From positions 1-51,176 of the forward strand of contig JAQBRD010000019.1 of the NCBI GenBank assembly GCA_028286665.1: a stretch of 51,176 bases of DNA, in the 5' to 3' direction. The DNA comes from Candidatus Tayloriibacteriota bacterium. Its GTDB lineage: Bacteria; Patescibacteriota; Minisyncoccia; Phycocordibacterales; PALSA-1337. This document shows positions 25,505 through 43,090 of this stretch, in pieces (within the stretch, counting starts at the first letter, position 1; every line of letters begins with the position of its first letter). A program made the translations under genes and the position numbers. The notes under the pieces are model-generated. The model was not told the origin of the DNA. It worked only from the letters and a program-made list of their open reading frames with translations, and made no database searches.

Positions 25505-28500
25505 ATGCCCGCGAAATGGATACAATCCAAAAGAGCTTTTTCCGCTATATTCTTTTTTGCGCTTGTGTCCGCTATTCTCCTCTCGGTATTCGCTTTCAAG
25601 CCGGCATCTTCTGATGCGGCTGGCGGGAATTGCGCTACTCCCAATTTCTACTGGTATACCAATAGCGCTGGCGATTCCTGGAATACGCTCGGTGATTGGT
25701 GGACTGATGCGAGCCATACAGTTAATAAGGGATCGCTCCCTGTTTCAGGTTCTTGCGTTGCTACAGTCGGCAATACTGGTCCTTCTGTTGATATAGAGGT
25801 CGTTCCGATACTTCCTGAGCTCGGCTCACTGGATGCAAGCGCCACAGGAATACTATTCAACAGCAGCTCATTGCTGCCAAATATGCCGTACACAATCAAA
25901 GGCAATATTTCCTTCATAGGAGCTTCGGGTATTGGAGGAAATTTTAATATTGATGACGGAGCCACGGTGACTTTCTATGAGTCAAGCCATAACGATGGAA
26001 ACATCAGCGGTCCTGGCGGCAGTACAGTATTTTTCTACGATTCAAGCGAGAACAATGGTAATATCAGCGGCGGAGTCGATGTGGTATTCAACGGATCGAG
26101 TCTCAATAAAGCTACTGGCAATCTCGATGTCAGTACCGCTGTGTTTAATGGCTCAAGCATCAATGCCGGAGCAGTCCTGGGTCAAACGACCTTCAATGGC
26201 TCGAGCTACAATTCTACGGGGCAGGTATATGGAGGAAGCGATGTCAGATTCAATACTGATCATTATGGCGGAGTTGCGCCGACGGGGGGAACGATCACGC
26301 TGAGCGGAAGTCAGAGCTGGACCATCGGTGCTCCGGAGGGCATTATCCGAGACTCCGACGGCAATCAGATCACTACGTTCGTATTCAACAATCAGAGCAC
26401 TGTAGTCAACACGCTCATTACGGGAGATGCGATATTCAATGGCCAGAGCCGTCCTGAGGGAAGCCACATCACCGGCAATGCCACATTCAATAGCTCGTAC
26501 TTCAGCCAAACGCCTCCAATGGGCGGGGTGCTTGAGTTCAACGGAACCAATTGGTCGAATAGGGTAGATGGCACCATGTTTGATTCGCAGAGCAATCCGA
26601 TCACGCTTTTCCTATTCGGTCCGAATAGCTTCAATGACAGCGCCGGATTCATATTCGCCGACGCATCTTTCAATGATTCGAATAACTTAGGCACTATCAG
26701 CGGCGCCTATACCGCAACATTCAACGGAACAAGCTCGAATAGCGGCGCCGAAGACTATGTTCACAGTATATTCAATGGCGACAGCTATAATACCGGTGCT
26801 ATCAGCGGCGACGCTGAATTCCATGACCGCGCGCATAGCGATACAGGTTCAATATCCGGCACGGCGCTATTTGATGGCGAAAGCTATTGTCAGGGAACTG
26901 AAATTTTCAGCTTCGCCACATTCAATGGTACGGGCTTCAGCAGCTGCTATATCGATGGCGGCGCGGAATTCAACGACACGACCCGCAACGATGGGACTGT
27001 CCTGACGGCTGCCACATTCAACGCTTCAAGCACGAATAATTTCGAAATCTACGCGGATACTACATTCAATGGCAGAAGCTTCAATGGCAGCTCAGGGAAT
27101 ATCTTGGGTGCAGTCACATTCAATAATTTGACCTACAATCTCGGCGGAACCTTCGGTACCACCACATTCAATGGCATAAGCTACAACGGTGGCAATACTG
27201 AAGTCGGCTTCAATGCCATATTCAATGATACGACTCATAATGAAGGCACAGTCCTGAGCGATGCAACATTCAATACTAATTATTATGCTTCTACAACCCC
27301 TGCGGCAGGCAGACTTGCAATAGAGGGCGGAAAATCATGGATTGGCTATCTGGGCGGAGCAGTATATGGTTCGGACAATGACCCGATCACCTCGTTTATT
27401 TTCTACGGCACAAGCACCAATGCCGGCGACGTTAATGTGCCTGCGATATTCAACGGATCATCAACTAATGGAGCGACGCTTCATAGCGATGCGACATTCA
27501 ACGATCACAGCTCCAACGGAGCCGATGTCGAGGGGACTTCGACCTTCAATGGGTTCAGCTTCAATTCGGGCACTATCAGCATCTCGACCTTCAATGGTTC
27601 AAGCCATAATGAAGGCTCTATTTTCAATAATGCGACATTCAACGATCTCAGCTATAACAACAATGACATTGATGGCAACGCCGTTTTCAATGGCACAAGT
27701 CATAATTCTGGGAACGGACACGTCTTCCATTCTGCAACCTTCAACACCGACTGGTATGGCGGATCTGTTCCTGCGGCCGGCATATTCAATATCGATGGAG
27801 GAAAGTCTTGGCTGGGCGAAGTCTTCGGAACGGTATTCGGTTCCGATAACGCCACTACTACGGGATTCTTCCTGAATGGCACAAGCACGAATCAAGGCGT
27901 GATCTTCACGACATATCCGCTGCATGCGACGACGACTCTCAACGGCGATCTTCCAGCCAATAACGGCACGATCAATGGAACGAAAGTGCGCCGATATGCT
28001 TCAAATGCTACGACTACGGCGAATTTCCTTACAGGCGCTCCTTGGACCGTTTTCGCTGACGGCGCTGTCGTCGACGTCTCCGGCGCCACCTTCGGTACGA
28101 GCACGACATTCCTGGCGCTCAATGGAGGATCATTCGCGACTCTTTCGACTGCGTGCGGGTCGCCGCTCATCGGAGGCCTCACATATCGCCTCTCAGCGAA
28201 CGCTACGGCGACGTGCACTGTTTCAGGAAATAACGTCACGCTCGATGGCGATGGAAAGACTCTTGTGGGAAATATCATCGGTAACGGGGCAACATCCGGA
28301 GCCGCTGGCTTCAGCTTCAATCTCGTGAGCATCACGGTCACTGGCAGCATTACGTCGAACGGAGCGAACGGAACGATCGGAGGCGCTGCAGGAACCATCA
28401 CGGTATCATCTTCGACAGTTGCTTCGATCACCTCGACCGGAGGCAACGGAACCGGAAATGGAGGTGCGGGAGGCACGATCACAGTCATCAGCTCGACAAG

Positions 28501-29767
28501 CACTGCGCTCGCCGCGAACGGAGGAAATAGTTCGAATAACGGTGCCGGCGGAAATGGAGGAACTATCAATGTTATCGACTCTGCCTATACAACTCTCTCT
28601 ACTGTTGCAGGAGTCGATGGTCCGAACAAGAATCCGGCTCAAGGCTCAGGCAGCGGAGGGTCGAGCCATGTCACCGACAGAGTTCCTCCAGTCATCACAT
28701 TGAACGGCAGCGCATCAGTGTCTGTCGCTGAAGGCGGTACATATACTGAGCTCGGCGCGACTGCAGTCGACGCGGTTTCGGGAAGCCGAACGGTCGTCGT
28801 GAGCGGATCAGTCAATGCCGCGACTCCCGGTATATACATCATCACATATACTGCAGCCGATGCGGCAGGCAATACTGCAGCAAAGACGCGTGCCGTAACA
28901 GTTGTCGCCGCTGTGCGCGGCTGTATGGACTCGACTGCTGCCAATTACAATTCATCCGCGACGATCAGCAATGGAAGCTGTACCTATGCATCAGCGACGA
29001 CAGATTCACCGGGCTCCGGAACAGGAGCGAAATCCGGATACTCGGGGCTTTCACGCGGCCTTGCTTTCGGCCCGGTGAATCCGCTCTCGTTCAATCCGTT
29101 GCCGAATTTCAGCGGCAGCCTCTCTGCGAATCAGGGCGTCACCAATTTCGGCAATATTCTGAGCGGGCTGAATTCTCCCCGGACGCTCAAGCTCTCGCCG
29201 ATCTCTTTCAGATTCGTTCCGCAGGTTTCATCATTCCTCTTTGCGCCGCTGCCGCCGTCAGTCGTCGCCATACTCAATAAGCTGCCGAAAGTCTCATCGC
29301 AGCTCGCTTCTGCGGGATTGAATCATGAGCAGGATCTCGTGTCGCTTCTCAGGAATCCTATTCCGCTCACGCTTGCTGCTGGGGAAGCGAAGCCTGCCGG
29401 CCTCTTCTTCGTAAGCGCATCGAGCACGCCGCTCCGTGCTTTCATTTCGGGAGATACTGCGCATCCTCTGATAGAGCTTGTTCGCGCAACCTCCGGCGAT
29501 ATCCTCGATGTGAGCCTCATTCCGCTGAGCAAAGCTCCGATATCTGCCAAATTTGAAGGAAAATCCCTCGCATTCTTCATTTCGAAGACTGGAGAAGCTC
29601 ACGCATTGATCAGCGTCCCTGCTAGGCCGGGAAGATATTTCCTGACAACTGCAGCTGCGCCGATGCCGCTCGTCATCGAGGTTCGGGAGGCTGCGAAGCC
29701 TGTCTTTGTTCCGAAGCCGACGCTCGGGCAGAAGGTGTCAGCGTGGTTCAGCCGCATTTTCCGCTAG
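25505..29767 (+). CDS. Giant repeat surface protein with DUF5011-like domain
   Basis: 1420 residues. A signal peptide (hydrophobic core about 13-32, FFALVSAILLSVFAF) predicts export. Residues about 190-800 are a repeat region of roughly 16-residue units with the motif (A/T)-x-FN-x-S-x-N-x-G, as in ATFNGSS and AIFNDTT, suggesting a beta-solenoid. Next comes a Gly/Thr/Ser-rich region, then a DUF5011/HYR-like Ig-type domain (about 1060-1135, PPVITLNGSASVSVAEGG) and a GCMDSTAANYNSSA motif like those of adhesins. The C-terminal ~250 residues are unknown and end KVSAWFSRIFR; no LPXTG or clear anchor helix is seen. Likely an attachment or host-contact protein. Confidence 0.82.
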   Translation: MPAKWIQSKRAFSAIFFFALVSAILLSVFAFKPASSDAAGGNCATPNFYWYTNSAGDSWNTLGDWWTDASHTVNKGSLPVSGSCVATVGNTGPSVDIEVVPILPELGSLDASATGILFNSSSLLPNMPYTIKGNISFIGASGIGGNFNIDDGATVTFYESSHNDGNISGPGGSTVFFYDSSENNGNISGGVDVVFNGSSLNKATGNLDVSTAVFNGSSINAGAVLGQTTFNGSSYNSTGQVYGGSDVRFNTDHYGGVAPTGGTITLSGSQSWTIGAPEGIIRDSDGNQITTFVFNNQSTVVNTLITGDAIFNGQSRPEGSHITGNATFNSSYFSQTPPMGGVLEFNGTNWSNRVDGTMFDSQSNPITLFLFGPNSFNDSAGFIFADASFNDSNNLGTISGAYTATFNGTSSNSGAEDYVHSIFNGDSYNTGAISGDAEFHDRAHSDTGSISGTALFDGESYCQGTEIFSFATFNGTGFSSCYIDGGAEFNDTTRNDGTVLTAATFNASSTNNFEIYADTTFNGRSFNGSSGNILGAVTFNNLTYNLGGTFGTTTFNGISYNGGNTEVGFNAIFNDTTHNEGTVLSDATFNTNYYASTTPAAGRLAIEGGKSWIGYLGGAVYGSDNDPITSFIFYGTSTNAGDVNVPAIFNGSSTNGATLHSDATFNDHSSNGADVEGTSTFNGFSFNSGTISISTFNGSSHNEGSIFNNATFNDLSYNNNDIDGNAVFNGTSHNSGNGHVFHSATFNTDWYGGSVPAAGIFNIDGGKSWLGEVFGTVFGSDNATTTGFFLNGTSTNQGVIFTTYPLHATTTLNGDLPANNGTINGTKVRRYASNATTTANFLTGAPWTVFADGAVVDVSGATFGTSTTFLALNGGSFATLSTACGSPLIGGLTYRLSANATATCTVSGNNVTLDGDGKTLVGNIIGNGATSGAAGFSFNLVSITVTGSITSNGANGTIGGAAGTITVSSSTVASITSTGGNGTGNGGAGGTITVISSTSTALAANGGNSSNNGAGGNGGTINVIDSAYTTLSTVAGVDGPNKNPAQGSGSGGSSHVTDRVPPVITLNGSASVSVAEGGTYTELGATAVDAVSGSRTVVVSGSVNAATPGIYIITYTAADAAGNTAAKTRAVTVVAAVRGCMDSTAANYNSSATISNGSCTYASATTDSPGSGTGAKSGYSGLSRGLAFGPVNPLSFNPLPNFSGSLSANQGVTNFGNILSGLNSPRTLKLSPISFRFVPQVSSFLFAPLPPSVVAILNKLPKVSSQLASAGLNHEQDLVSLLRNPIPLTLAAGEAKPAGLFFVSASSTPLRAFISGDTAHPLIELVRATSGDILDVSLIPLSKAPISAKFEGKSLAFFISKTGEAHALISVPARPGRYFLTTAAAPMPLVIEVREAAKPVFVPKPTLGQKVSAWFSRIFR
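26080..27900 (+). repeat. Two-level coding repeat in the surface protein
   Basis: DNA coding the solenoid: TTCAAT/TTCAAC (Phe-Asn) recurs about every 48 bp. Superposed are four copies of a longer ~48-residue module starting near 26249, 26486, 27269 and 27740. Each reads FN-[ST]-x-[YW], then a Pro-rich turn, a Gly-x-Ser-Trp or similar strand, a DS/SD(N) turn and an F-x-F strand ending in NxST. The regular insertion of a longer module into a short-unit solenoid suggests growth by segmental duplication. Confidence 0.75.
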
Positions 29768-34901: not shown

Positions 34902-36008
34902 ATGCAACAAGACCTCGAAAAATTATTCCGAATCTCCCAGCACTTCCAGATCTACGGCGAACTCACCAGCGTCTCGATCTGCAAAGTCGGACACATCAAT
35001 GAAACCTGGGCCGCCACATACGACCAGGGCGGCATCCGAGTCCGCTACATCCACCAGTGCATCAACAGCAGCGTCTTCAAGGACCCTGCCGCGACGATGT
35101 CCAACGTGGCGCGAGTCACGAAGCACATCCGGTCGAAATTGGAAGCGGAAGGAGCAAGCCAGATAACCCGGCGCTCGCTCATCCTCATTCCGACCAAGAC
35201 CGGCAAAGACTACTTCGTCGATGGCGAGAACTACTGGAGGACCTTCATCTTCATCGAAGGAGCCAGGACATTCGAAGCGATCACGAGCACGCAGCAAGCA
35301 TATCTCGTCGGCCAGTCATTCGGCCGATTCCAGAGCATGCTTGCGGATCTGCCCGGCGAACGTCTTCATGAGACGATCGCAGGCTTCCATGATACGAGAG
35401 CTCGTTTCCAGGCTCTGATGCAGGCGGCTGAAGCGAACCGTTTCGAGCGCGCTCTAGGAGCAAAGGCCGAGATCGATTTCGCCCTGAAGCGGAAGAAGAT
35501 CGTCGGCATCATCGTCGATGCGCTCGCGAAGGGGAAGATCCCCGAGCGAGTCACGCACAATGATACGAAGCTCAACAACATCATGTTCGATGTGAAGACC
35601 GATGAAGCGCTCTGCGTCGTCGATCTCGACACCGTCATGCCGGGCTGCGCGCTATATGACTTCGGAGACATGATCCGGACTACGACGAATCCGATGCCTG
35701 AAGACGAGCAGAACTTGTCCAAGGTGAAGATGTCGATGCCGGCTTTCAAGAAGCTCGCGGCCGGATATCATTCGAGCGCCAAAGGCTTCCTGACGCCTGC
35801 TGAAAAATCCCTCATGGCCTTCTCCGGCAAGCTCATCACGCTCGAGCTCGGGATGCGATTCCTGACCGATCACCTCGCCGGAGATACGTATTTCCGGATC
35901 CATCGTCAGAATCACAACCTCGATCGCGCCCGAGCGCAATTCAAGCTCGTCGAATCCATCGAAGAACAGGAGGAGGCGATGCAGAAGTTCGTCGATTCTC
36001 TGCAATAG
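34902..36008 (+). CDS. APH-family sugar kinase, NahK-like
   Basis: 368 residues with the aminoglycoside-phosphotransferase/choline-kinase fold. The catalytic loop is THNDTKLNNIMFD (Brenner motif HxDxxxxN in the variant HND...N), and the metal-binding strand is VVDLDTVMPGCALYDFGDMIR; the VDLDTxMPG pattern is that of N-acetylhexosamine 1-kinase (NahK). The N-terminal lobe has INETW and a GENYWRTFIFIEG hinge. It may phosphorylate an amino sugar or N-acetylhexosamine for salvage into cell-wall or glycan precursors; the exact substrate is inferred. Single gene with a strong terminator. Confidence 0.78.
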   Translation: MQQDLEKLFRISQHFQIYGELTSVSICKVGHINETWAATYDQGGIRVRYIHQCINSSVFKDPAATMSNVARVTKHIRSKLEAEGASQITRRSLILIPTKTGKDYFVDGENYWRTFIFIEGARTFEAITSTQQAYLVGQSFGRFQSMLADLPGERLHETIAGFHDTRARFQALMQAAEANRFERALGAKAEIDFALKRKKIVGIIVDALAKGKIPERVTHNDTKLNNIMFDVKTDEALCVVDLDTVMPGCALYDFGDMIRTTTNPMPEDEQNLSKVKMSMPAFKKLAAGYHSSAKGFLTPAEKSLMAFSGKLITLELGMRFLTDHLAGDTYFRIHRQNHNLDRARAQFKLVESIEEQEEAMQKFVDSLQ

Positions 36009-36027
36009 CCCAGTACCTCAAAGCAAT

Positions 36028-36057
36028 CCCCGCGGCCCAAAGCCGCGGGGGCTTTTT
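36028..36057 (+). terminator. Terminator of the kinase gene
   Basis: CCCCGCGGC (36028-36036) pairs with GCCGCGGGG (36042-36050), followed by GCTTTTTATT. Confidence 0.9.
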
Positions 36058-36117: not shown

Positions 36118-36288
36118 ATGGACAGCAAAGAAATACGGACCAAGGCCGAAGAATTGAAAAGCATCCTCTCCGCATCACGGGGAGAATTGAGCATCCTTGA
36201 GAAAGAACTCCTGAATGCTGTCGGTGAATATCAAAAAGCCCTGAACGAGGAAAAGATCCGAGAAATTAAGCAGACTCTGGACATATGA
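36118..36288 (+). CDS. Small coiled-coil protein coupled to the giant NTase gene
   Basis: 56 residues from the ATG at 36118 (MDSKEIRTKAEELKSILS); a longer frame from 36079 would begin before the likely -10 (TACAAT, 36102-36107). Predicted to be almost one continuous amphipathic, charged helix pair (ELSILEKELLNAVGEYQKAL), with no Cys or membrane segment. Its stop overlaps the next start as ATGA (36285-36288), so it is translationally coupled to the 1525-aa protein, as for a small partner or chaperone. No known family. Confidence 0.6.
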   Translation: MDSKEIRTKAEELKSILSASRGELSILEKELLNAVGEYQKALNEEKIREIKQTLDI

Positions 36289-39200
36289 CATCTGTTTCAG
36301 AAAAGCCGAAGGCAATCGATGAAAAGGCCGAGCATGCAATAGCGCAGGCTCCTGAAGTTCTGGGGATCGACGAAGCCGATCTCAATAAGCTCGCTGAAGA
36401 AGCCAGCGCTGAAATAGCGGCTGTTCAGGGCGATATCATCGCATCTGCAGACCAGAGAGTGGAAACCGCCCCTGCATCAGTCGGTCTGAGTCAGGAGAAA
36501 GCTGCAGCGATCTATTCCTCCGGCGGCTTTGCTGAACGGATCGAAGGCATCAAGGCGAAGATATCCGATTTTGCCGAAAGCGCAAATGTGAAAATCGACC
36601 TCATGCGATTGAAACTGCAGGGCATCGAGAATCCCGAGCGTGTTCTGGCTGTCGCCCGGTATCTCGAAGAATCTGCAGTGGAGACGGAATCGCATCATCG
36701 GAATATCAAAAAATCCAATGCAGCCGGCATCGAAAAACAGTCGGAAAAATTCCGAAAGCAAGGCTTTGAGGTCAAGGCTTTTGAAAGTTCAGATAAGGAC
36801 ACCATGAACATCTACGCTACGAAAGAAACCCCATATTCATTCAATGCTGGAAAATCAAAGTATCTTGCGAAAGATATCGAAAAAATGGCGGCCAAGAATG
36901 ATCCGATCAAGCTGCTCGAGGCGCTGCGAGATGCTGGCTATCAGATCGATATCACAAAGGGCGGCACATTCAAAGACTATTACGGACTGAGAGATCTGGC
37001 AAAAAATGCTGACGTGCTGCCGCTGCTCGAGAAGCTCAAGTCGTTCGGAGGCGCAAGCGTCGCGCATGATTTCGGGAAGCGCGGCGAGGAAGCGATGCGG
37101 GATCTTTCGAAGCTCGCAACAAAAGATGCTGCAGAGCATCTGCTGACTCCTGAGGCTGAGAAGAACATAGAGAGAGTTTCATCTTTGCTCGGCAAACCGA
37201 TAGACCTCAACATGCTTGAAAGCTGGATCCGGCTCTCGAAAGACCCCGCTTTGATGGAAATCCTCTCCTTGTCAAAGCCTGCAGAGAGAGATGAGCCGTA
37301 CGCAGAGTCGTCGATGATGCACAGATTAGAAATCATCAAAGAAGCTGGCATCGGAAACGAGTACGCTGCCTTGCTGAAAGACGGATTTTCAGAAAAATCG
37401 ATCGGCAAGCTGTATGGTCATCATACTGAAAAAACTGCAAAGGATCTGCGATCGGCTGCAGAGGCATTCGAGGCAGATCCAGAGCTGAAGAAATTGGCGC
37501 TCGGCATGGAAAAGGTCTTTGCGGCAGACGCATATGATGAGCAGGACATCCTGAATAAGGAAACGATCGAAAAACTCCAGGAACTTGCCCGAGAAATTCC
37601 TGCAGCTTCGGCTGCATTCAGCAACTTGGCCGATCTAGGATTGCGCGGCGGTTCATGGCACATGGATCTCGCTCATCTGCTCGATAGGAATAATCCTGAA
37701 AATGTCTTCGCATGCAAGGAAATCCTCGAGGTCATCGCAGAGCCGGACTTCAAGGATTTCTTCGCGAGCTGCGAAAAGTCAGGATATAAATTCACGCTCG
37801 CGGACTTTTTCAATGAGTATCCGAAATCCAATCGCCTGATCGAGAGCTATCGCTATGAACCGTTCCGGTCAGCGATCGAATCCGAATCTGGCCAGGCGCT
37901 TGCGGAACATCTCGGCATCTTCAAGGTTCCGATGAATCAATGGAACATATGGATCCTCGGATCTCTTTCGAAGATACCGGATTCGCTGCCGACGCTCGTG
38001 AAGCTCGAAGAAAAGTACTCGTATGCATACGATCCGAACAGCAACGAAAATAACAATGCGTCCTATAATCTAACCATGCTGCTGAACGACCACCAGGAGC
38101 TCCTCAGCAAGCTGTTCGAACCGCAGAAAGTAGAGACCATGCGGCTTCTCAATGCCGAATTCGGCATAGCGCTCTCTCTAGTCGGGGCACAGGAGTTTTC
38201 GGATATTGCTGAAGATGCAGACTTCATCGCTGCATTGAACAATCCGGAGAGCGTAGCTTTCGCGAAGGCCGTATTGAAGGATGAAAATAAGGATATAAAT
38301 ACCATCAAGGCATTATTCAGCTGCAATCCTGCTTTCCGACCTATCATCGAGAAAATGGTGAAGGAATTCGATTATGCGCCGCGCGGGACGTATGATATGT
38401 CCTATGAATATGATGAAGAAAAAGACAGGGAGGTTGGCAAGAGGCAATTGGTGCTCGCTGACGCTGCGAAGTTCCAGGAATTGCTCGATAATCCGATCCT
38501 TTTGGAGATTCAGCAGCATCTGGAATCTGTAGGCATGCGGAAAAACCCGCTGACTTGCACGAAGGAGCTCAAGGTCATTTCAGAGAATAACCTTTTGCCG
38601 ATGCTGGAGCAGTGCCAATCTTCTCCGAAGACTCAGGAATTCCTGTGGAATAATCTCGAGGCAGCTATCTCGATATCTCGATTGTCGCCAGAAAAGGTAT
38701 CCACCTATCTGGAAATATTCCAGAAGATCGGCGACTCGCCTTCGCAGGAGATCCAGCGGCTCAAGGACTCCTTGCTCTCTCAGCTTTCCGAATCAGAGCA
38801 TCCGATAGAGGACTATCAGAAGATCGAGTCGATTTTCATAAAGAATAATATTCCCACGGTAGGGAAAATATACGGAGTCTTCGAGACGCTGCATGGCCCG
38901 GAAGTTCTGGAACGTACGATCAAATCGATGGAGAACGTCAGTCCTGTATTGAAAGAGGCAAGCACGAGAAAGCGCTATTACACTCTGTACCAGGATCTGC
39001 TCAAAGTGCATATCGAATCGGGCAATCGATCCTTGAAGGAGTATGCGGAAATATTCCAGAGCGGCGGCCAGCTGATCGAGCGATTCGAAAGCGCAGGGTT
39101 GGAATCGCTCAGCCCGCGCGAGCAGGAGCAGCTCCGCTATTTCGTAGGAAAATTAGAGACCTTGCAGTCCAAATCAGCTTTGGATTCTGCGGATGATGCG

Positions 39201-40862
39201 TTCGCAGTCGCGAATGCCGCTGATGTGGAGCAGCGGATCGCGCATGTGAAAGAGGGGCTGAAAGTCGCCGAAGGGCAGACTGTCCTGGAGAGGGTTTCGG
39301 ATATGTATTTGCGGCCTGCAGGACTGGAAAGCTTCGTTGAATTGCTCGATCGGATGCGCAATTCAAAGAGCGGAGCCGATGAGCGCAGCCGGCAGATGAT
39401 TGCGGATGCGCGGCAGAAAGCCGGCGGCGGCGATGTCGTCCTGGAATTGAGCGGCGGTGAATTCCTGAAGGGCGTGAACGCGAGATATATCGGAAATATC
39501 CTCCAGAACGGTTCTGTCGCAAAGGAGTTCTTGGGATCTGACGCTAGTTCCGATTCGACTCCGCTTGATACGGACATCAGCCTGGTTACGCCCGAGAATG
39601 CGGCGGGAGGTTTCACCAATTCGATCAGCAAATCCCTGGCAAATGGATATGGAGATATCCTCTTCGCGCTGAAGGATCGCGGACAGTATCAGCTGACTGC
39701 CGTAGGCCAGCCGGCGCGCGCAGAAGCGGGCAAGATGGAACTGTTCCAAACCGGAGCCCTCGGCAAGAGCCATTATGGCATCCGTACAGGCTTTCCAAGC
39801 ACCGAAATCGATTTCATGATCGTGAAAGACTTGGCTTCTCGTCCGAAAGATCTGGAGAACTTGTTTTTCGAGATCGCTCAGAACGGATATTACATACCGG
39901 TCGCCGATATTTCAGGAAAAGTCATATTCACTCCTGAAATGTACGACGAATACCGGAAGCTGTTTGCGGGACTTGAAAAATTCGACGGTTCAGAGCTCGA
40001 GCACCATCCGATCACGGAGAGCGAACTTTCATATGAAAAAGTGACCTCGATCGCCGAGGCTCTTCCTGAAGAGAATGATCGAGTTGAGCGTGCTACCCAG
40101 ACGATTCGCAGCGAAGTTGAGCGTGTCTTGGGCAGCATGGGGGTTGCGCTCCGTCAGGAGTTCGATACCGGCATTCTCGGAGCAGAGCTTCTGGATACGG
40201 GTTCGACCGGAAGGCATACGAATACTCCTGGAGACTTCGATTTCGACTTCAGCCTGAAGCTCGATGCGAAAGATTTCCCAAAATCTCCGCAGCTTGTTCG
40301 CGCCATCAAAGACGTTATGATTTTTGACAAAGACGACTCTCATCAGGAGGCTGGCGGGTATTATCAGCTGCGGGTCAAAGGCGTAACATCGATCGGCGGA
40401 CAGCAGCTGGATAAGGCTCTGGACATCGATATCGGATTCTCGAGCAAGTCTGACTTGAGCGCATACGGGTCTCATGACGCCATCCGAGACAAGCTCAAGC
40501 ATCTCAAGGGTCATGATGGCCCGGAAGCCTATGAGCAGACTGTCGCCAATATCATCTTGGCAAAGCAGATATTGAAGGAAGGCCATGCATATAAAAAGCA
40601 GGAAGACGGAGGATTCGGCGGCATCGGCGTGGAAAATTGGATACTGGGGCATGGAGGAAATATCGAGGAAGCTTTCAGAAGCTTCAGGGATGCTGCCTAT
40701 GAGAATGGACAGAAAGTGCCTTATGAAATATTCAAGGAGAAATACAAGATCCTGGATCCGGGCATCAATATCAAGTATTCGGGCCACGATGATTTCATCC
40801 GCGTGCTGAAGCCTGGAGGATATGATGCGATGCTCAGGACTATTGAAAACTATCTGAGTTAG
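36285..40862 (+). CDS. Giant protein with C-terminal class I nucleotidyltransferase domain
   Basis: 1525 residues with no signal peptide or membrane segment, so cytoplasmic. Residues 1 to about 1000 are mainly helical and may contain alpha-solenoid repeats. Residues about 1050-1215 look like a separate alpha/beta domain (NGYGDILFALKD near 1118; HYGIRTGFPSTEIDF near 1162). The C-terminal ~240 residues carry a polymerase-beta-type nucleotidyltransferase fold: GSTGRHTNTPGDFDFDF with G1306-S1307 and Asp 1317/1319/1321, and a third acidic strand LDIDIGF with Asp 1380/1382. The following helical part (KKQEDGGFGGIGVENW) recalls archaeal CCA-adding enzymes. All predicted catalytic acids are present. 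Its natural role is unknown. Confidence 0.75.
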   Translation: MTSVSEKPKAIDEKAEHAIAQAPEVLGIDEADLNKLAEEASAEIAAVQGDIIASADQRVETAPASVGLSQEKAAAIYSSGGFAERIEGIKAKISDFAESANVKIDLMRLKLQGIENPERVLAVARYLEESAVETESHHRNIKKSNAAGIEKQSEKFRKQGFEVKAFESSDKDTMNIYATKETPYSFNAGKSKYLAKDIEKMAAKNDPIKLLEALRDAGYQIDITKGGTFKDYYGLRDLAKNADVLPLLEKLKSFGGASVAHDFGKRGEEAMRDLSKLATKDAAEHLLTPEAEKNIERVSSLLGKPIDLNMLESWIRLSKDPALMEILSLSKPAERDEPYAESSMMHRLEIIKEAGIGNEYAALLKDGFSEKSIGKLYGHHTEKTAKDLRSAAEAFEADPELKKLALGMEKVFAADAYDEQDILNKETIEKLQELAREIPAASAAFSNLADLGLRGGSWHMDLAHLLDRNNPENVFACKEILEVIAEPDFKDFFASCEKSGYKFTLADFFNEYPKSNRLIESYRYEPFRSAIESESGQALAEHLGIFKVPMNQWNIWILGSLSKIPDSLPTLVKLEEKYSYAYDPNSNENNNASYNLTMLLNDHQELLSKLFEPQKVETMRLLNAEFGIALSLVGAQEFSDIAEDADFIAALNNPESVAFAKAVLKDENKDINTIKALFSCNPAFRPIIEKMVKEFDYAPRGTYDMSYEYDEEKDREVGKRQLVLADAAKFQELLDNPILLEIQQHLESVGMRKNPLTCTKELKVISENNLLPMLEQCQSSPKTQEFLWNNLEAAISISRLSPEKVSTYLEIFQKIGDSPSQEIQRLKDSLLSQLSESEHPIEDYQKIESIFIKNNIPTVGKIYGVFETLHGPEVLERTIKSMENVSPVLKEASTRKRYYTLYQDLLKVHIESGNRSLKEYAEIFQSGGQLIERFESAGLESLSPREQEQLRYFVGKLETLQSKSALDSADDAFAVANAADVEQRIAHVKEGLKVAEGQTVLERVSDMYLRPAGLESFVELLDRMRNSKSGADERSRQMIADARQKAGGGDVVLELSGGEFLKGVNARYIGNILQNGSVAKEFLGSDASSDSTPLDTDISLVTPENAAGGFTNSISKSLANGYGDILFALKDRGQYQLTAVGQPARAEAGKMELFQTGALGKSHYGIRTGFPSTEIDFMIVKDLASRPKDLENLFFEIAQNGYYIPVADISGKVIFTPEMYDEYRKLFAGLEKFDGSELEHHPITESELSYEKVTSIAEALPEENDRVERATQTIRSEVERVLGSMGVALRQEFDTGILGAELLDTGSTGRHTNTPGDFDFDFSLKLDAKDFPKSPQLVRAIKDVMIFDKDDSHQEAGGYYQLRVKGVTSIGGQQLDKALDIDIGFSSKSDLSAYGSHDAIRDKLKHLKGHDGPEAYEQTVANIILAKQILKEGHAYKKQEDGGFGGIGVENWILGHGGNIEEAFRSFRDAAYENGQKVPYEIFKEKYKILDPGINIKYSGHDDFIRVLKPGGYDAMLRTIENYLS

Positions 40863-41935: not shown

Positions 41936-43090
41936 ATGAACGAAACATCATTCAAGCCTGAAGCGATCGGCCAGCCGAAAGTGAAAGACGTCCGCGACTA
42001 TTTTCCGCTGACCCGATTTCACCGGGAGGCGACGGAGATCGATACGGATCCTTCGCATCCGTGGGGCGCAGTGCACAATCACGAGACCATCAAGGATGAT
42101 TTCGGAACGATCGTCGTCGGCGAATGCTTCGAATCCAGGGACGCTCCGAAAGGCCTCCTCATCGCGGAAAAGGCGAATGACGGCGAAAGCTCCTCGCTCT
42201 ATCTCGACGCGCTTGATCCGCTCCATGCAGACCAGGTCTACGAGCTCGTCACGAAATTGAGCGTGCACCTCGATCATGAGAAGCGGCATGAATTCATCCG
42301 GAAAGTAATCGAAGATGCTCCGAAGCTCGAGCCTGGAGATGTCGTTGCGGAGAAGCTCGGCCTCGACCTGCTCGACCTCCTGCCTGATCTTCAGGAAGAG
42401 GAAGCTGTCGAGGAATCCGTGTGCAAGCACCCGATCATGGAGAAATTCGAAGATCCGAAGCAGCGCGAGCAGTTCGAGGATTTCATCCTGAAAGTCGCGC
42501 AGAAGATGCCGGAAGGGCTGATCCAAGGAAAGCTCGACCAGATGGCCGAGGATACCAGCTTCACGCACGACCTGTTCGGCAAAAATTATCCGATGTTCTT
42601 CAATGATTCGCTCGCTTGGGTCGTGAAGTCGCGCGAAGATACCCGAGCTGACTATGAGCTGCTCCGCCGCCAGGAGCCGGAAAAATATGCCGTGAAGGAT
42701 ATGATCACGAATCCCGTGACGACGAAAGCCGCTCTTTCGAATGTGCTTTCAGGAATGCCGATCGAATCGCTGCCTGATGCGAATCGGATGCAGCTCGGAC
42801 ATCCGCATGCGGAAATCGTGGAGCTCGAGAGCGTCGTCGGCTTCATCGGCGAAGAAAATCCACAAGGCTGGGAAGTGAGCGATTCGAATGGCCGCGGACT
42901 CGACCGCATCTTTGACCTCGCGCATGAATTCCAGGATGGAGGCCGCGACGTGACCGAAAGCGACCCGATCCAAGTCACCAAAGTCGATGGCAAATACTAT
43001 ATCTCGAATGACGGCCGCCACCGCGTCGCTGCGCTCAAGGCGCTCGGCGTGAAGGAGGCGCCGATGCTCGTGAAGGAAGTCGTCGCGTAA
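41936..43090 (+). CDS. Protein with C-terminal ParB/sulfiredoxin-like domain
   Basis: 384 residues. The last ~60 residues (DPIQVTKVDGKYYISNDGRHRVAALKALG) match the ParB N-terminal/sulfiredoxin fold: the GRHRxxA box is the nucleotide-binding core of ParB-like CTPases and of Srx. The first ~250 residues are acidic and unrecognised, with a His-rich stretch near 50 (PWGAVHNHETIKDD). There is no ParB-type helix-turn-helix after the box, so it is not a chromosome-partition ParB. It could be an ATP- or CTP-using enzyme or a regulatory protein. An extended -10 (TGC-TATTAT, 41909-41914) lies upstream. Confidence 0.65.
   Translation: MNETSFKPEAIGQPKVKDVRDYFPLTRFHREATEIDTDPSHPWGAVHNHETIKDDFGTIVVGECFESRDAPKGLLIAEKANDGESSSLYLDALDPLHADQVYELVTKLSVHLDHEKRHEFIRKVIEDAPKLEPGDVVAEKLGLDLLDLLPDLQEEEAVEESVCKHPIMEKFEDPKQREQFEDFILKVAQKMPEGLIQGKLDQMAEDTSFTHDLFGKNYPMFFNDSLAWVVKSREDTRADYELLRRQEPEKYAVKDMITNPVTTKAALSNVLSGMPIESLPDANRMQLGHPHAEIVELESVVGFIGEENPQGWEVSDSNGRGLDRIFDLAHEFQDGGRDVTESDPIQVTKVDGKYYISNDGRHRVAALKALGVKEAPMLVKEVVA

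Follow-up and report, generated by a model that had tools for sequence, protein, structure and literature searches.

The locus and its two genes

The window analysed here is a stretch of 51,176 nt from the genome of a Candidatus Tayloriibacteriota bacterium (0.93 Mb, 34 contigs, 94% complete). On the forward strand it contains a gene for a charged, coiled-coil-like protein of 56 amino acids (36118–36288), its coiled-coil character being judged by eye, followed by an ORF of 1525 amino acids (36285–40862). As the first-pass annotation had claimed, both ORFs are present and are coupled by an ATGA overlap at nucleotides 36285–36288. Upstream of the pair lies a hairpin (36027–36051, forward strand) of 10 pairs, nine of them G-C, with a T-rich tail. 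Since this strong terminator-like structure closes the preceding gene, the two genes probably constitute a unit with its own start, beginning after the hairpin. No membrane segment was found in the 1525-aa protein, the highest 19-residue Kyte-Doolittle mean being 1.0.

The gene just upstream of the pair (34902–36008, forward strand) specifies an APH-family kinase-like protein (PF01636, E 7e-13), and the downstream neighbour is an asparaginase-like ORF. Two genes downstream, a 384-aa protein without a Pfam match (41936–43090, forward strand) ends in a segment (SNDGRHRVAALKALGV) similar to the ParB-like portion of SerK/SbnI (NCBIfam E 3.5e-4). Elsewhere in the window, nucleotides 25505–29767 (forward strand) encode a secreted-looking protein of 1420 amino acids with many diverged FNGSS/FND repeats.

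Homologs of the small gene are found directly upstream of relatives of the large one. ORFs of 49–60 amino acids, ending between -11 and +5 nt from the large-gene start, were located in 10 loci including the source genome, and a profile of these 10 recovered an eleventh, unseeded, in L023 (E 3e-8), where the overlap is GTGA at the GTG start of the large gene. A survey of the gene pair, which the first-pass annotation had advised, therefore reveals a small partner kept as a protein in 11 Patescibacteria loci. These are scattered over the Patescibacteria part of the family tree; at the corresponding place in the Bacilli members the profile found none.

A family with exchangeable N-termini

Used alone against Pfam, NCBIfam and the PDB, the 1525-aa sequence returned noise only, as did searches of the same databases with small alignments. 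No Pfam or NCBIfam model attains its cut-off on this protein, in agreement with the earlier suggestion of an undescribed family, and weak cGAS matches (E about 1) served as pointers only. A single-sequence search of the genome contigs found no relatives, whereas an alignment-based search succeeded. Seven full-length relatives (1360–1701 amino acids) come from the same order as the source genome, and an alignment of these seven gave 117 matches in species-representative genomes, from which 78 loci were kept. Altogether more than 100 relatives were found and 77 were aligned. The nearest relative of the 1525-aa gene, from a Candidatus Zambryskibacteria MAG, is 66% identical. Loci were retrieved with the patterns HYGIRTGF and GVENWI, so that conservation there is partly built in; invariant residues outside these two patterns are unaffected.

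Among the Patescibacteria, carriers include Parcubacteria, Uhr-, Magasanik-, Davies-, Collier-, Roizman-, Nomura-, Peri-, Moranii- and Saccharibacteria, and outside them uncultured gut Bacilli and Clostridium. Presence is sporadic: in the order 11 of 397 genomes carry the gene, in the phylum 8 of 380, and in the source organism's own family 1 of 14. The Patescibacteria and Bacilli members stand apart in the tree, and the gut Saccharibacteria are nested on the Bacilli side, which is consistent with lateral transfer. Tandem copies occur in L082 (4485–16580; three in a row) and in L050. No relative was found in 50,697 phage records, 72,556 plasmids or IMG/VR, ruling it out as mobile-element cargo; a viral structure library gave distant nucleotidyltransferase (NTase) or ART matches only.

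The C-terminal ~720 residues are common to all members, and the part in front of them ranges from ~300 to more than 2000 amino acids. In the source-genome protein this front is a fast-evolving helical module (aa 1–804; 36285–38696, forward strand) with 10% mean column identity and no Pfam match. The C-terminal halves of L061 and of L057/L063 are about 80% identical (about 81% between L061 and L057), whereas their fronts have no detectable similarity; the L061 front is related to those of L055 (E 5e-28) and L058, whose C-termini belong to other clades. Within the clade of the source-genome member, L024 has its front in common with L033 and not with the source-genome member, L022 or L023. Single linkage separated the members compared into 26 front types. 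The odd N-terminus of L056 was left out of account, an upstream 452-aa ORF suggesting a frameshift there. Unrelated fronts on closely similar C-termini look as if recognition parts were being exchanged while the catalytic part stays constant. Sequence comparison makes it quite probable that the N-terminal ~800 residues are exchanged between members, a feature missed by the first-pass annotation.

The nucleotidyltransferase and ART-fold domains

The constant module begins with a conserved helical segment (aa 805–1040; 38697–39404, forward strand), delimited by alignment and AlphaFold. The AlphaFold model of aa 805–1525, built upon the 77-sequence alignment, has a pLDDT of 92.5 and a pTM of 0.91 and contains the predicted NTase core on which the first-pass reading hinged. 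This core and a CCA-like helical domain occupy aa 1251–1525 (40035–40859, forward strand), as judged from structure and profile matches. The two motifs reported previously, GSTGRHTNTPGDFDFD (aa 1306–1321; 40200–40247) with the catalytic GS and the first two acids, and DID (aa 1380–1382; 40422–40430), are where they had been placed on the forward strand. The set of GS and three acidic positions is likewise intact, the third acid being D1382 and not D1380. G1306, S1307, R1310, D1319 and D1321 are invariant in all 77 aligned relatives, and position 1382 is D in 76 and E in one. The protein thus has the GS, three acids and core fold by which the Pol-beta nucleotidyltransferase superfamily is recognized.

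In a Foldseek comparison of the NTase with the PDB, the leading matches were class I CCA-adding enzymes of archaea (1r89, E 6.1e-6, probability 1.00), followed by poly(A) polymerase, Cid1, OAS1, TUTs, CdnC and cGAS. Among 65 members, the Pfam models NTP_transf_2 and SMODS were matched by 22 and 7, respectively, the PADLOC CD-NTase (oligonucleotide cyclase) models by 37 (best 2.2e-6; the source-genome member was not matched), and TIGR03671 (archaeal CCA) by 25, all weakly (best 2e-4). A sequence-only comparison with one archaeal CCA enzyme scored 18.9, barely above the 18.5 of shuffles. The archaeal-CCA-like helical segment proposed to follow the NTase was recovered by alignment: aa 1422–1463 align with the A. 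fulgidus CCA enzyme, and GGFGGIGVENWIL (aa 1442–1454; 40608–40646, forward strand) is the equivalent of the archaeal helix. Based upon the predicted fold, the profile matches and the invariant G1306, S1307, D1319, D1321 and D1382, the domain is very likely catalytically active.

The archaeal class I CCA-adding enzyme (1r89, TIGR03671) likewise has an NTase core with GS, DxD and a third D, and its helix after the core corresponds to GGFGGIGVENWI of the 1525-aa protein. Its C-terminal tail domains are missing here, where the chain ends about 70 residues past the helical motif, and, unlike the archaeal enzyme, this NTase terminates a chain of 1525 residues and usually coexists with a regular CCA enzyme of the bacterial kind. 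CD-NTases, OAS and cGAS belong to the same superfamily; they are about 300–500 amino acids long, and the bacterial ones stand beside an effector gene. Unlike these, the NTase described here is fused to a predicted ART-fold domain and a swapped front, and has no effector gene.

The additional alpha/beta domain noted before at about aa 1050–1225 is present in the predicted structure. Modelled alone, aa 1045–1250 (39417–40034, forward strand) reached a pLDDT of 91, and the best PDB match was yeast Tpt1 (7yw4), a tRNA 2'-phosphotransferase (E 1.2e-3, probability 1.00). All 50 of the matches listed are members of the ART superfamily (KptA, DarT, PARPs and bacterial ART toxins). That the domain adopts an ART fold, which had escaped the first-pass annotation, is accordingly well supported by the model. 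E1081, D1090, T1092, D1095, D1097, G1123, G1165, R1167 and P1205 are invariant; the set E1081, D1090, D1095, D1097 and R1167 is not known from other ARTs. With catalytic positions placed by sequence alignment rather than from coordinates, the usual H/R position of ARTs is K1062 in 75 of 77 members and H in two, and E1174 is present in 64 of 77. The R-S-E, H-Y-E and Tpt1 R-H-R-R catalytic sets were not found in the 77-member alignment.

At strand 1, L042 and the paralog L107 carry LLHGT, matching the HGT of Tpt1 and PARPs; the sequence is K-G-[IV] in most members. The likeness to Tpt1/KptA and the ART superfamily thus lies in the predicted fold and in the HGT of these two proteins; it does not extend to the K that replaces H at strand 1 in most of the family, nor to the sequence level, where no similarity to PF01885 (Tpt1/KptA) was found and the Tpt1 profile comparison was not significant (P 0.04). 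We limit the label to a predicted ART fold, the domain being neither a Tpt1 nor a proven ADP-ribosyltransferase. Helical-plus-ART proteins lacking the NTase also exist, namely a 376-aa protein (G245:C18:17431–18486) and the 718-aa L107 of G474.

Possible functions

With the folds of the predicted structures, the conserved active-site residues, the swapped fronts and the gene coupling in hand, we propose that the large protein is a modular recognition-plus-effector enzyme which adds nucleotides, probably in conflict or stress; for this reading as a whole we estimate a probability of roughly 0.4. Residues 805–1525 would be the constant catalytic unit, consisting of a helical scaffold, the ART-fold domain and an NTase of the class I CCA/CD-NTase type, and the N-terminal ~800 residues an exchangeable helical module that sets the binding or sensing target. 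With D1319, D1321 and D1382 holding two metals, the NTase would use NTPs to transfer NMP onto an acceptor, which the CCA-like helical domain would hold in place. The likeliest acceptor is the 3' end of an RNA, tRNA for example, although we put an RNA end at even odds. We infer further that the ART-fold domain might bind or modify the same nucleic acid, or a nucleotide or NAD-like ligand, and that in Patescibacteria the 56-aa protein might bind the large chain and regulate it. Whether the enzyme acts as an effector in conflict or stress responses or is instead a housekeeping protein is, in our estimate, a balanced question. The former is suggested by the sporadic presence, lateral transfer, tandem copies and swapped fronts, that is, by pattern and not by gene context. 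The neighbours of family members are unrelated, mixed housekeeping genes, many of them for translation, as small genomes lead one to expect, which rules out a defence island; among them no defence, RNA-repair or effector genes were found, only scattered PADLOC matches.

ART domains and Pol-beta NTase domains are also both found among the polyvalent proteins of phages and conjugative elements, which are large conflict proteins of many domains (PMC5512222). Unlike these, the present family is chromosomal, was not found in phages or plasmids, and has a fixed two-domain C-terminus. In the limited literature consulted, we found no report of ART and NTase domains in one such chain.

A first alternative is RNA repair, in which the NTase restores 3' nucleotides and a Tpt1-like ART domain removes the 2'-phosphate on damaged tRNA. 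Structurally, the NTase comes closest to a CCA-adding enzyme and the ART-fold domain to a tRNA 2'-phosphotransferase, earlier work links ARTs of the KptA type with NTases as repair partners (PMC9503650; PMC7824862), and a separate KptA/Tpt1 (PF01885) was missing from 192 Patescibacteria genomes, E. coli and other controls being positive. However, the family does not keep the catalytic residues of Tpt1, and N-terminal swapping is atypical of a repair enzyme. Of 29 carriers tested, just one has RtcB, which rules out RtcB-dependent repair and makes ligase-coupled repair unlikely; RNA ligase is likewise absent among the neighbour families listed. We consider repair unlikely.

Somewhat more doubtful is a signalling role, whereby a CD-NTase-like synthase would make a cyclic or linear oligonucleotide and the ART-fold domain would be the ligand-binding or effector part of the same chain. 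The PADLOC and SMODS matches and the presence of OAS, cGAS and CdnC among the structural matches speak for this, but no separate effector gene adjoins, and in structure CCA enzymes and PAP are nearer than CD-NTases. A toxin-antitoxin-like pair, in which NMP is transferred in the manner of MntA to a protein such as the 56-aa partner, is less likely still. The conservation of the coupled gene in the Patescibacteria loci and one family member that matches MntA speak for it; against it, the small gene is not found beside the Bacilli members, and the large N-terminal part is left unexplained.

That the protein is the organism's own CCA-adding enzyme was attractive at first, since the two tRNA genes in the window do not encode CCA and PF01743 has no match in the source genome or in its nearest relative G359, but it is highly improbable: a class II CCA enzyme is present in 41 of 50 carriers and in 9 of 11 of another sample, which rules out a general replacement, the same-family genomes G133 and G381 have neither a PF01743 match nor the giant protein, and 13 of 14 genomes of the family lack the giant. 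The Saccharibacteria carriers L090, L091 and L098 also have no class II CCA enzyme (PF01743) match.

Returning to the recognition-plus-effector enzyme, a bolder version would see in the family a new class of immune or conflict enzymes of small-genome bacteria. Their ART-fold domain would be catalytic, with a new active site, and would act in sequence with the CCA/CD-NTase-type NTase on a single substrate, tRNA ends for instance, when triggered via swappable fronts. We regard this as a rather long shot, if less so than repair. The ART and NTase superfamilies both have central roles in RNA repair, in antiviral signalling and among toxins. Since the family is large, unnamed, present in two distant groups of small-genome bacteria and subject to swapping of its front half, it may offer a way into the response of Patescibacteria and gut Bacilli to attack or stress.
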